From positions 186,001-250,000 of the forward strand of contig CANJRD010000002.1 in assembly GCA_947476695.1 (NCBI GenBank): 64,000 bases of DNA, given 5' to 3'. The stretch comes from Rhodospirillaceae bacterium. GTDB lineage: Bacteria; Pseudomonadota; Alphaproteobacteria; Rhodospirillales; Rhodospirillaceae. Positions 59,774 to 64,000 of the stretch are shown here, in pieces (position 1 is the stretch's first letter; each line of letters starts with the position of its first letter). The notes beneath the pieces are model-generated. The model saw only the letters and a list, made by a program, of their open reading frames with translations. It had not been told where the DNA came from and ran no database searches. A program made the translations under genes and the position numbers.

Positions 59774-60553
59774 CTAAAGCCAGGGCGCGAGATACTTCTC
59801 GCCCATGCCGGCCTGACTGCGCGCTTCCATGTTGAAGGGGCCTTTCAGCGTGCCGATGAATCGATCCGCGATGATGTCGCGGAACGTGGCGTGTGGGTCG
59901 CATCCCTCCCGCGCGCAGACGAACTCGAACCAGCGCACGCCAATACCAATGTGGCCGATCTCGTCGCGATAGATCGTGTCGAGAACGTCGGCGGTTTCCG
60001 GGTCGCCGGCGCGGCGGAATTTCTCCGCCGTTTGCGGGGTCACGTCGACGCCGCGCGCTTCCAGCGTCAGCGGCACGAGCACCAACCGCGCGGCGAGGTC
60101 GTCGGTGGTCTTGGTAGCGGCTTCCCACAGGCTGTCATGCGCGGGGAGGTCGCCATACATCGTTCCAATCGCGGCGAGGCGGTCGACCAGCAGACCGAAG
60201 TGCCGGGCCTCCTCGTCGGCGACACGGACCCAATCGTCCGTGAAGGCGCGCGGCAAGCCGTCACCGAAGCGCGCGATGATGTCCCAGGCGAGGTCGATAG
60301 CGTTGAACTCGATATGCGCCAGCGCATGGATCAGCGCGATGCGCCCTTTCGGGCCAGTCGAGCGCTTGGGCATCTGCCCGGGCGAAAGCAGTTCCGGGCG
60401 CGCCGGACGCGCAGGGCGATCTGGTGGAGCGCAGGTGCCAAGCACCATCGCACCGCCGCGCCACGTTGCGGCGGCCTCGGCGGTCAGGCGTTGCTTGTCG
60501 GCAGGGTCCGCGGCGGTGAGCACCCCCACCGCCGCTTCTGAAAGCGAAATCAC
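59774..60553 (-). CDS. Ferritin-like DUF455 family protein
   Basis: A 259-residue all-helical protein of the DUF455 family. Metal-ligand-like motifs are HALAHIEFNAIDLAWD, VADEEARHFGLLVDRL and YRDEIGHIGIGVRWF, the E/H pattern of ferritin-like di-iron proteins; CDPHATFRDIIADRF follows. Reaction unknown. Its GTG start overlaps the bcp stop (GTGA) so it is the third gene of the glnE-bcp operon, which suggests a peroxide/iron stress link with Bcp. Confidence 0.85.
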   Translation of the reverse strand: MISLSEAAVGVLTAADPADKQRLTAEAAATWRGGAMVLGTCAPPDRPARPARPELLSPGQMPKRSTGPKGRIALIHALAHIEFNAIDLAWDIIARFGDGLPRAFTDDWVRVADEEARHFGLLVDRLAAIGTMYGDLPAHDSLWEAATKTTDDLAARLVLVPLTLEARGVDVTPQTAEKFRRAGDPETADVLDTIYRDEIGHIGIGVRWFEFVCAREGCDPHATFRDIIADRFIGTLKGPFNMEARSQAGMGEKYLAPWL

Positions 60554-61155
60554 AACCCGGCAATGGCCTTGCTGAGGTCATCGTAGTGCGTCGGCACTCT
60601 TACTTTGCGCCATTCGCCGCGCACGATACCTTTCTCGTCGATCAGGAATGTGGAGCGTTCGATGCCCATGAAGCTGCGGCCATACAGGCTTTTCTGAGTC
60701 CAGACACCGTACTTCTCGCAGACGGCGGTGTTCTCGTCCGAAGCCAGAAGGAAATTCAGGTCGTACTTCGCCTTGAAGCGATTGTGCTTCTCGACGCTGT
60801 CCTTGGAGACCCCGATGACGACGGTGTTGGCTTTGGCCAGGTCCTTCATGCCGTCCCGTAAGGCGCAGGCCTGGGCGGTGCAGCCAGGGGTGTCGTCCTT
60901 CGGATAGAAGTACAGCAGCACGCGCTTGCCCTTGAACTCGCTGAGCGAGATCGTCCGGCCGTCGCCGGTCGGCATGGTGAAGGCGGGCGCCGGCTTGCCG
61001 ACGAGGGACCCAACCCGCGCCGCGGGAGCTTTCGAAGCGGACGTTTTTTTTGCGGGTTTGGCGGTCTTTTTGACAGCCTTCTTCACAACCTTAGGGGTGG
61101 CTTTCTTCGGCGCTTTCGCGGCCACTTTCGTCGTCGCCTTGCGTTTCGTAGCCAT
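60550..61155 (-). CDS. bcp: Thiol peroxidase Bcp with histone-H1-like basic tail
   Basis: About 201 residues. The peroxiredoxin domain starts near residue 50: GKPAPAFTMPTGDGRTISLS, LLYFYPKDDTPGCTAQACAL (peroxidatic Cys in TPGC and a second Cys five residues on), GVSKDSVEKHNRFKAKY and KSLYGRSFMGIERSTFLID. It reduces peroxides with thioredoxin. The first 47 residues are unusual: Lys/Ala/Pro-rich, with 17 Lys or Arg in repeats like KKAVKKTAKPAKKT, as in histone H1-like proteins. This ATG has AGGAG at 9 bases; an ATG two codons upstream overlaps the glnE stop. Confidence 0.92.
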   Translation of the reverse strand: MATKRKATTKVAAKAPKKATPKVVKKAVKKTAKPAKKTSASKAPAARVGSLVGKPAPAFTMPTGDGRTISLSEFKGKRVLLYFYPKDDTPGCTAQACALRDGMKDLAKANTVVIGVSKDSVEKHNRFKAKYDLNFLLASDENTAVCEKYGVWTQKSLYGRSFMGIERSTFLIDEKGIVRGEWRKVRVPTHYDDLSKAIAGL

Positions 61156-61157
61156 CG

Positions 61158-64000
61158 TCATTCGCTCCTATCGACGATCGTCTGTTGGAACAAAGTGGAG
61201 ATTTGCGCGGCGGTATCCTTCATCAGCGCTTCGAGCGCCTCGAATGTCGGAACCTCAGCGACCACCGTGAGCTTGTTCTTCAGGCCCAACGACAAATCGG
61301 ATGGTGCGTCGTCCGCCAACGACAGGCGTAGCATCACCTGCAGGCGCAACCAAAGCAACAGGCCGGCGATCAGTTTTGCGGCGTCTTCCCCGTCGATATG
61401 TCCGGCGGCGCGTAGCGCCTCGACCACCGCCACCATGCCGCGATCCGCGGCGCGAAGGCCGCTGCGACTGTGCAGGACGTGGAACTGCACGAGGAATTCG
61501 GCATCGATCATGCCGCCTGGGCGATGCTTCAGATCCCAAGCGTTGTCTCCCGGGTGTTCCTTCCGCATGCGGGCGCGCATGTCACCGATTTCCTGGCGCA
61601 GCGTGTTCGGATCGCGCGCGCGTTTCAGGGTGTCGAGAATGACGGCATCGAGGCGGGCGGTGAGGTTCTCCGGCCCATAGACAACGCGGGCGCGGGTGAG
61701 CGCCATGTGCTCCCACGTCCAGGACTTGTCGCGGTGATAATTGGCGAAGCCGTCATAGGGCGCGGCAAGCGGGCCTTTATCACCGTCCGGCCTCAGGCGG
61801 TGGTCGACGCTATAGAGCGCACCTTCCCGTGTGAGGGCTGTAAGGGCCGTGGTCAGGCGCTGCACGAAACGGATGTAGTAAACCGGCGCCGACAGCGATT
61901 TCGGCCCGCCTACCGACAGGGCTTCGGGTTCGTGGTCGTACACCACCACGATGTCGAGGTCCGATGTCGGCGTCAGTTCGTGGCTGCCGAGCTTTCCGTA
62001 AGCGACAATGGCGATGGCTCCGCCCGGCACCGTTCCATACTGGCGTACGAAGTCGGCTTCAACGTGGGGGGTGAGACTGTTCAATACTGCGACGGCGGCA
62101 TCGCTGAATTTCGCAGCGGCGACTTCAGGCGTGACGCGACCGCGAAGCAGTTGGACGCCGATACGGAACCGCTGGTCGTTCGCCCAGCGGCGTGTGAGAT
62201 CGAGGATTTCCTCGAATGCCGTGCCGCTGGTGAGTGCCGCCGCGAGATCGGTTCGCATGCCTTCGATGTCGGGCAGGGACGCGTAGAACTCCGGTTCCAG
62301 AACGTAGTCGAGCAGGGCGGTGTTGCGCGTGACCATCTCGGCGAGGCGCGGTGCGTCGCCCATAATCTCGGCGACCAGATCCATCAGCTCGGGGTTCGCA
62401 TGGAACGTCGACAACAGCTGAACCCCGCTGGAAAGCTGCGCCAGGGTTTGATCGAAGCGGATCAAGGCGACGTCCGGCTGAGTCGTCTTGCCGAACGCAG
62501 TCAGCAGCGGCGGAATCAGTTCCGTCAGCAGTTGACGGGCTCGGTCGCTGCGCATCGCTCGATAGCGGCCATGATGCCAGGCCCGCACGGCCGCCGCGGC
62601 GGCCGACGGGTTTTGGAACCCGAGACGCCGCAAGGTCTCCATCGTGTCGGAATCGTCCTCGGTGCCGGTGAAGACGAGATTGCCGCCAACCGCCAGGCTG
62701 GGCGCATCCTCGAACAACGCGGCGTAGTGAGTCTCCACGGTGCGCAGCGCCGCTCCCATGTCCGCCGCGAAGCTCTCGCAATCGGGATATCCGAGAAATG
62801 CCGCGAGTTCGGCCAGAGGCCCTGGCTGGGACGGCAACGTCTGCGTCTGCTCATCGGCGATCATCTGCAGTCGATGCTCGACTTTACGAAGATAGCGATA
62901 GGCGACGGTCAAGTCGTCGCGCGCTTCATCGGTGATGAAGCCCAGCTTCTGCAAGGTCTCGAGTGCGCCCAGGGTTGTCTGAATGCGCGCTTCGGGAATG
63001 CGTCCGCCCCAGATGAGCTGCTGGGTCTGGACGAAGAATTCGATCTCGCGAATGCCGCCGCGACCGACCTTGATGTTGTGCCCGGCAATGGCAACCTGGC
63101 TGCCGCCCTTGTGGGCGTATATCTGGCGCTTGATCGAGTGGATGTCCTGCAACGCATAGAAGTCGAGCGACTTGCGCCAGATGAAGGGCTTCAGTCCATC
63201 CAGGAATTCCCGCGCCGCGCCACCGTCGCCGGCGATGAAGCGGGCCTTGATCAAGGCCGCGCGTTCCCAATTCTGACCGTAGTTTTCATAGTAGCTTTGC
63301 GCGGCTTCGCGGCTGACGGCGATGCTGGTCGAGGCGGGGTCGGGCCGCAGCCGCAGATCGGTGCGGAACACATAGCCGTCGGCCGTGCGCTCTTGCAGGA
63401 TGCGCACTAACGACTTCGTGAGGTCGACCGCGAATTCCTGCGGCGATTTTTTACCGACGTAGGGCAGGCGATCCGCGTCGAACAGTACGAACAGGTCGAT
63501 GTCAGACGAATAATTCAGCTCGTGCGCGCCGAGCTTGCCGACCCCCAGCACGACATAACCGCTCTGCGCCGGATCGGCCGACGTGAGACGTCCGAGGTTG
63601 AGGGCGTCCTGCATCGCACCCGCCACAGCTTTGCGGACGCAGAGGTCAGCGAACCCGGACAATGCGACCACGACTTGGTCAACGTTCCATTGCGCGGTGA
63701 TGTCCGCGATCCCAATCGCGAGAGCGGCGCGGGCTTTCGCACGACGCAGGCGGAGCATCAGTGCCTGAATATCGCCATCATCGACATGCGTGATGAGATT
63801 CGCTTGCGCCCCGTCCAGGGCCGCGCGTGGCCCGCTCTGGACAAACAGCCTTAGGATGTCCGGGTGTTCGGTCAGCAACCGCCCCAGGAACGGACTGTTC
63901 GCGAAAATGCCGTCCAACAGCGGGGTCAACTGCGGGTCGTTATCGGCCGCCGCGACGAACGTAGCCTCCGCCGGCATGCGCTGCGCGGCTTCTGCGGCCC
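61158..64000 (-). CDS. glnE: Glutamine synthetase adenylyltransferase/deadenylase (partial at 5' end)
   Basis: The frame is open to the right window edge, so the gene start lies outside; about 947 codons are visible. Two nucleotidyltransferase domains occur: the N-terminal with LGAHELNYSSDIDLFVLFD and the C-terminal with LGSHELTPTSDLDIVVVYD, each followed by Arg-rich DLRLRPDP or DHRLRPDGDKG. Other family blocks are KVGRGGIREIEFFVQTQQL and KHRPGGMIDAEFLVQFH. The enzyme adenylylates or deadenylylates GlnA in response to PII. Its stop overlaps an upstream bcp ATG; a downstream operon with bcp and DUF455 is clear. Confidence 0.95.
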   Translation of the reverse strand, partial: AAEAAQRMPAEATFVAAADNDPQLTPLLDGIFANSPFLGRLLTEHPDILRLFVQSGPRAALDGAQANLITHVDDGDIQALMLRLRRAKARAALAIGIADITAQWNVDQVVVALSGFADLCVRKAVAGAMQDALNLGRLTSADPAQSGYVVLGVGKLGAHELNYSSDIDLFVLFDADRLPYVGKKSPQEFAVDLTKSLVRILQERTADGYVFRTDLRLRPDPASTSIAVSREAAQSYYENYGQNWERAALIKARFIAGDGGAAREFLDGLKPFIWRKSLDFYALQDIHSIKRQIYAHKGGSQVAIAGHNIKVGRGGIREIEFFVQTQQLIWGGRIPEARIQTTLGALETLQKLGFITDEARDDLTVAYRYLRKVEHRLQMIADEQTQTLPSQPGPLAELAAFLGYPDCESFAADMGAALRTVETHYAALFEDAPSLAVGGNLVFTGTEDDSDTMETLRRLGFQNPSAAAAAVRAWHHGRYRAMRSDRARQLLTELIPPLLTAFGKTTQPDVALIRFDQTLAQLSSGVQLLSTFHANPELMDLVAEIMGDAPRLAEMVTRNTALLDYVLEPEFYASLPDIEGMRTDLAAALTSGTAFEEILDLTRRWANDQRFRIGVQLLRGRVTPEVAAAKFSDAAVAVLNSLTPHVEADFVRQYGTVPGGAIAIVAYGKLGSHELTPTSDLDIVVVYDHEPEALSVGGPKSLSAPVYYIRFVQRLTTALTALTREGALYSVDHRLRPDGDKGPLAAPYDGFANYHRDKSWTWEHMALTRARVVYGPENLTARLDAVILDTLKRARDPNTLRQEIGDMRARMRKEHPGDNAWDLKHRPGGMIDAEFLVQFHVLHSRSGLRAADRGMVAVVEALRAAGHIDGEDAAKLIAGLLLWLRLQVMLRLSLADDAPSDLSLGLKNKLTVVAEVPTFEALEALMKDTAAQISTLFQQTIVDRSE

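Follow-up and report, generated by a model that had tools for sequence, protein, structure and literature searches.

A Bcp/PrxQ peroxiredoxin with a lysine- and alanine-rich N-terminal tail, a candidate polycationic tether, in a clade of Rhodospirillaceae

The bcp locus and the peroxiredoxin core

The window, by which we mean the whole 64,000-nucleotide stretch of DNA analysed, carries a bcp/prxQ gene between glnE and a gene for a DUF455 protein, all on the minus strand (Table 1). The ATG at 61155 is the likelier of the two possible bcp starts because of its spacing from the AGGAG sequence, nine bases as against only three for the ATG at 61161. The preliminary description had placed a basic tail on the minus-strand reading frame from 61155 to 61015, and its coordinates, strand and composition (15 Lys and 2 Arg) were found to be right. 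It had also raised the possibility that translation starts after the tail. From codon 25 to codon 60 there is no ATG, GTG or TTG, and therefore translation cannot begin just behind the tail; two in-frame GTGs lie within the tail itself, at codons 11 and 24.

Table 1. Features of the bcp locus, in window coordinates
Feature	Position	Strand	Remarks
DUF455 protein, downstream neighbour	59774..60553	-	GTG start overlaps bcp stop
bcp/prxQ CDS	60550..61155	-	201 aa counted from ATG at 61155; NCBIfam PRK09437 above cut-off
AhpC-TSA peroxiredoxin core	60619..61002	-	residues 52-179 of 201-aa form; Pfam PF00578; model matches Bcp/PrxQ structures
Cys97	60865..60867	-	+5 from Cys92, within CTAQAC
Cys92 in TPGC	60880..60882	-	invariant in 49-sequence alignment
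Lys/Ala/Pro/Thr-rich N-terminal tail	61015..61155	-	residues 1-47; reads MATKRKATTKVAAKAPKKATPKVVKKAVKKTAKPAKKTSASKAPAAR
glnE, upstream neighbour	61158..63977	-	stop overlaps first possible bcp start
Alternative in-frame ATG	61161	-	six bases upstream of 61155 ATG; overlaps glnE stop as ATGA; 203 codons
AGGAG, ribosome-binding-like sequence	61165..61169	-	9 bases before 61155 ATG, 3 before 61161 ATG

Only peroxiredoxin-type domains matched the protein in Pfam and NCBIfam, with no HU domain or other DNA-binding body among the matches. The Pfam AhpC-TSA match (E 2.3e-41) covered residues 54-181 of the 203-residue form, and the NCBIfam profile for thioredoxin-dependent thiol peroxidase (PRK09437) scored 162.3 bits against a cut-off of 140. 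The residues P85, T89, C92 and R167 of the PxxxTxxC + Arg pattern were invariant in 49 sequences, and we take them to be the catalytic-motif residues, Cys92 presumably being the peroxidatic Cys. The second Cys, five residues past the first as in the 2-Cys PrxQ type, is where PrxQ enzymes usually have their resolving Cys and may serve as such.

The predicted fold of the core, with pLDDT mostly above 90, matched Bcp/PrxQ chains (best E 2.9e-20); the best structural matches were 9a4d_B, an integrative AckA-Bcp model, followed by 5enu and 5ima. E. coli Bcp, Xanthomonas PrxQ and the Burkholderia protein 5enu share with the window protein the modelled fold, the NCBIfam equivalog, the TPGC motif and the Cys at +5. 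The solved Bcp/PrxQ chains differ in that they have about 160 residues and align from residue 53-55, whereas the window protein adds 47-49 basic residues. Judged from its sequence, the gene product is a Bcp/PrxQ peroxiredoxin of the ordinary kind that is extended at the N-terminus, and peroxidase activity would be expected of it. Two further proteins of the genome gave peroxiredoxin-like matches, one AhpC-like and without a tail and the other with an apparent signal peptide; therefore, no cytosolic Bcp other than the tailed one was found in this genome.

The N-terminal tail and its distribution

The 15 Lys and 2 Arg of residues 1-47 are accompanied by no acidic and no aromatic residue, and the tail is fused directly to the core, so that the Lys-Ala-Pro-Thr pattern joined to a TPGC peroxiredoxin was as first described. 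The net charge was +17 for the 49-residue extension and +6 for the core. The AlphaFold2 model, built from the 49-sequence alignment, had block means of pLDDT of 88-98 in the core and 51-67 in residues 1-50, and the tail was modelled without secondary structure. The prediction is thus of a core of standard fold preceded by a disordered tail, as had been anticipated.

No known family could be assigned to the tail. Searched alone against Pfam, histone H1-like families included, it had no match at E up to 10, in a search in which the HMMER filters drop most matches above an E of about 0.1. Expansion of a DNA repeat was rejected, since Tandem Repeats Finder gave no repeat in the window's tail and the Lys codons are mixed.

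Lys/Ala tails as a general habit of this genome were also rejected: the tail as a protein query against its own genome, at E up to 10, found only itself, and few pattern sites were rich in Lys and Ala. The KKxxKK codon pattern, which gives an incomplete listing of basic tails, occurred at 25 sites, compared with 17 for a reversed control. The Lys/Ala-rich sites were those of Bcp, a PmbA/TldE protein, an L30-like protein and a 23-residue peptide. The PmbA/TldE protein (L254, 1411-3030; contig C9 near 53,730) has an N-terminal tail of about 115 residues that is rich in Lys and Ala and matches Pfam HC2 weakly (19.4 bits, cut-off 40). In the alignments with the proteins of the two congeners, its first aligned residues are 113 and 116, and the tail was not seen there. 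Between Bcp and PmbA/TldE, it is only the Bcp tail that is retained over genera, as far as the alignments indicate. The L30-like protein (L270; contig C8 near 147,570), which we presume from its sequence to be ribosomal protein L30, is extended at its N terminus by ~60 residues rich in Lys and Ala; unlike the Bcp tail, this extension includes acidic residues. The tiny open reading frame MAAKKKAAKKVAKKKAKKKAKKK (L250, 1498-1569 on the minus strand; contig C2 near 137,000) has AGGGG upstream of its ATG and possibly encodes a 23-residue H1-like peptide.

The family search covered 73 genomes, of which 58 matched at E <= 1e-30; two of the 15 without a match belong to genus g19. The rule for scoring a tail took in the start codon, a ribosome-binding-like site and the composition; 22 of the 58 family loci read were tailed. 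By genus, the tailed loci were 3/3 in the window's own genus (g1), 17/17 in g19, 1/1 in g20, 1/4 in g5 and 0/33 in the other genera. The starts of two of these proteins in the g1, g19 and g20 group, L090 and L103, were set longer by hand than the rule gave. The composition rule was loosened from 25% to 20% Lys+Arg, with acidic residues tolerated at no more than 8.5%; L016 and L152 count as tailed only under this looser form.

A FastTree phylogeny was built on 237 distinct cores, the tail being excluded; these were the 247 matched loci minus three duplicates, one short core and six identical proteins. All 21 Bcp loci of g1, g19 and g20 are tailed and form one clade with a support of 99, and the sister group of this clade consists of six tailless proteins (support of the parent node, 91). 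The 237-protein tree required at least nine changes of state for 33 tailed proteins, a count that cannot separate gain from loss. The tailed proteins outside the clade were found in eight separate places, including records of Bdellovibrionales and Ca. Chrysopegis. In a class-wide sample of 109 loci from 108 genomes, taken as the best-scoring rows of a search that matched 277 of 385 genomes, five were tailed (four by the stricter first rule). This 5/109 is perhaps slightly high, because four rows (G399, G346, G449 and G322) were skipped for later ones, among them the tailed G200. Nine of the 80 named loci were tailed, three of the nine being duplicates of clade members.

These loci indicate that the tail is not a quirk of one genome. 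Close relatives without the tail would have spoken against the preliminary description, and all 21 clade loci read keep it, with a composition conserved as that description would lead one to expect. The statement that a typical Bcp begins at the conserved PAPAF region fits most of the relatives read, although it does not extend to the basic N-terminal tails scattered in other lineages. Two observations concern individual records. The tailed clade members L100, L102 and L103 have TTGC or TAGC instead of TPGC, and L103 is without the Cys at +5. The record of L008, titled Candidatus Marinimicrobia, is probably mislabelled or contaminated, because its Bcp tail is identical to that of L098 from the window's family.

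The gene neighbourhood was read at 56 of the 247 loci. It was found that glnE is upstream of bcp in 21/21 clade loci, with the end of the match within 84 bases in 20 and at 508 in L085, and that DUF455 is downstream in 19/21; in the two exceptions, L093 stops at the contig edge and L096 has none in 1.5 kb. The tailless family members L104-L112 had glnE in 9/9 and DUF455 in 4/9. Because bcp follows glnE in tailed and tailless relatives alike, the tail looks like an addition to an orthologue in place, and a paralogue or a fusion with a neighbouring gene was rejected.

Charge and lysine codons of the tail

Tail length in the 21 clade members ranges from 24 to 61 residues, and the 910 residues taken together consist of 37% K, 28% A, 8.5% P, 6.8% V, 6.7% T, 4.1% S and 2.3% R. 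Among the 910 residues there were two Asp, no Glu and no W, F, Y or C, the absence of Glu being independent of any alignment. The net charge of the tails ranged from +10 to +26, and 20 of the 21 proteins begin with M-A-x-Lys/Arg. The clade tails have no hydrophobic stretch (the highest 15-residue mean hydropathy was 0.22), and a signal peptide was rejected for the want of such a stretch.

The Lys codons of the clade tails comprise 150 AAA and 187 AAG. When the tails of eight sister pairs were compared, the Lys codons differed silently (AAA/AAG) 49 times among 100 K-K columns, with two K/R changes and no K/E change, in pairwise alignments of low-complexity tails that are biased toward K-K matches. 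Silent, K/R and K/E changes are all A/G transitions, and under 1:1:1 rates these numbers have a p of about 2e-21. Changes between A and T (16) and between A and V (14) were common in the same tails. The cores of these eight pairs, taken as a control, had 30 silent, six K/R, two K/E and two K/D changes, with 101 K-K columns; therefore, Lys is kept in the core too, yet acidic replacements happen there.

Lysines of the tail were also paired with Ala (11), Pro (5), Thr (3) and other residues, partly owing to register shifts, which argues that charge density rather than each Lys is kept. In an ungapped comparison of residues 2-12 there were no acidic changes and 11 K/A differences, and thus single Lys positions do move. 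Because silent Lys changes are abundant, K/R changes rare, K/E changes absent and Ala swaps common, the codon comparison argues that the positive charge of the tail is under selection while its sequence drifts. The tails favour Lys over Arg more strongly than charge alone can explain.

The clade also has, on the whole, more basic cores, with a median net charge of +5 compared to +1 for the 201 loci with an extension of under eight residues. The cores of the window's two congeners had only +1 and 0.

Proposed role of the tail

The enzyme is of an ordinary kind, and Lys/Ala tails have precedents among DNA-binding proteins. According to PMC5676037, mycobacterial HupB requires its PAKK/KAAK tails to bind DNA stably, and in Streptomyces topoisomerase I lysine repeats make the hold on DNA more stable. 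These tails are C-terminal and on proteins that bind DNA anyway, whereas that of Bcp is N-terminal and on a metabolic antioxidant enzyme. A Lys/Ala-rich basic tail that is predicted to be disordered is common to Bcp and nucleoid proteins of the HupB kind, but the HU-type body is absent from Bcp. With the histone H1-like Hc1/Hc2 proteins the tail shares its Lys/Ala-rich composition, without a match to the HC1/HC2 profiles.

Among peroxiredoxins, the Bcp/PrxQ relative Dot5 (nTPx) of yeast is nuclear and basic in its N-terminal part. It differs in being eukaryotic; its structure 2a4v was among the sequence matches of the window protein. The nuclear peroxiredoxin PfnPrx of Plasmodium falciparum presumably uses a basic extension as well. 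It is Bcp-type and classed as 1-Cys in PMC3337327, and the title of a paper cited there describes it as associated genome-wide with chromatin. PfnPrx differs from the bacterial protein in being eukaryotic, in its 1-Cys class and in its location in the nucleus rather than a nucleoid.

In our proposal, the gene product would be a thioredoxin-dependent Bcp/PrxQ peroxiredoxin bearing a disordered polycationic N-terminal tether, retained through selection for its lysines and not for an exact sequence. The tether would bind nucleic acid in a loose, reversible, electrostatic and sequence-independent manner, nucleoid DNA in the first place and RNA in the second, and would thereby raise the local concentration of the enzyme such that peroxides are destroyed near the molecules that they damage. 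We consider the chances of this reading, a tether to nucleic acid that guards locally against peroxide, to be evenly balanced. Nucleic acid as the ligand and local protection as the benefit are what we infer from the precedents, and it is those of HupB and topoisomerase I and of the Plasmodium Bcp-type protein that favour a nucleic acid tether, with DNA over RNA. The occurrence of basic tails on Bcp in several separate branches of the tree is consistent with the proposal, as are the Lys/Ala tails that PmbA/TldE and, in partly acidic form, the L30-like protein bear in this genome. Against it stand the lack of a Pfam match for the tail alone, the basicity of the clade cores that the window's congeners (+1 and 0) do not share, and the long PmbA/TldE tail that was not seen in the congener alignments, which indicates that such tails can come and go.

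It had been suggested initially that the tail could bind DNA, RNA or polyphosphate. Binding of this kind is plausible by the HupB and Plasmodium analogies, while the analogies do not tell the polyanions apart. Lysine-rich tails would equally suit ribosomes, polyphosphate and anionic membranes, and the main rival explanation is accordingly that the tail is a polycation for a polyanion other than nucleoid DNA, namely polyphosphate, ribosomes or the anionic phospholipid of the inner membrane, and places the enzyme there and not on the nucleoid. The conservation of charge and not of a long motif agrees with this, as does the Lys/Ala-rich N terminus of the L30-like protein in the same genome; on the other hand, among polyanions DNA and RNA are the most plentiful, and the tails lack the hydrophobic stretch that insertion into a membrane would use. 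We regard this explanation as rather unlikely, although it is the strongest of the rivals.

A role in solubility, expression or turnover, in which the tail would be an entropic bristle or a translation-friendly start with no specific ligand, is improbable. It would account for the start being the most regular part of the tail and for the variation of length from 24 to 61 residues, but it would not forbid Glu, which is missing from all 910 residues despite 337 Lys codons one transition away and did not replace Lys in any of the eight sister pairs. A non-adaptive low-complexity expansion that chanced to be in frame is strongly disfavoured, and we think it very improbable. Tails do come and go, as in g5, where one of four loci is tailed, and in PmbA; however, the Bcp tail is present in 21/21 loci across cores down to 59% identical, is free of tandem repeats with mixed AAA and AAG codons, and shows next to no non-silent A/G change at Lys codons, the p of about 2e-21 assuming equal codon positions. 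The last alternative, a mis-called start with the true N terminus at or near the core, has almost nothing to recommend it and was rejected on the codon scan and the starts of relatives: in-frame GTGs exist within the tail, and the start rule favours ribosome-binding-like sites so that the called starts of relatives are no independent proof, but a start at codon 24 would still keep half of the tail, none is available from there to codon 60, 20 of the 21 clade proteins read from ATG share their beginning, and Lys is selected in the stretch preceding the core.

Returning to the nucleic acid tether, a wider form of the proposal is that bacteria have repeatedly evolved a nucleoid-tethered peroxiredoxin, convergent with the chromatin Bcp of Plasmodium, in which a selected, lysine-rich H1-like tail makes a general scavenger of peroxide a DNA guard on the spot, perhaps tuned by acetylation of lysines; we offer this only tentatively and think it may well prove wrong. 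The literature searched, open-licence papers only and thus weak evidence of absence, yielded no bacterial Bcp with a selected Lys/Ala tail, no lysine-rich DNA-binding extension of a peroxiredoxin and, judged by titles and the opening of abstracts, no paper on a DNA-bound bacterial peroxiredoxin. A term search of the Deinococcus PrxQ paper (PMC6590489) found no 'DNA binding'. If the tail does tether the enzyme to DNA, bacteria would position peroxide detoxification spatially, on the nucleoid, and would not depend solely on enzymes that diffuse together with proteins that coat DNA, Dps for example. Even with another polyanion as the ligand, the tail would be a retained charge-only feature on a housekeeping antioxidant enzyme.

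The same enzyme behind glnE, with the tail and without it in sister groups, constitutes a natural experiment. An in-frame GlnE match was found in two of the 34 loci with at least 80 open upstream codons, the upstream stretches being mostly too short to exclude further read-through loci. In these two, L049, where 1000 codons are open ahead of the core, and L125, where 294 are open before the stretch is cut off, the glnE frame is open into bcp with no stop, which suggests a GlnE-Bcp fusion or translational coupling in these genomes.
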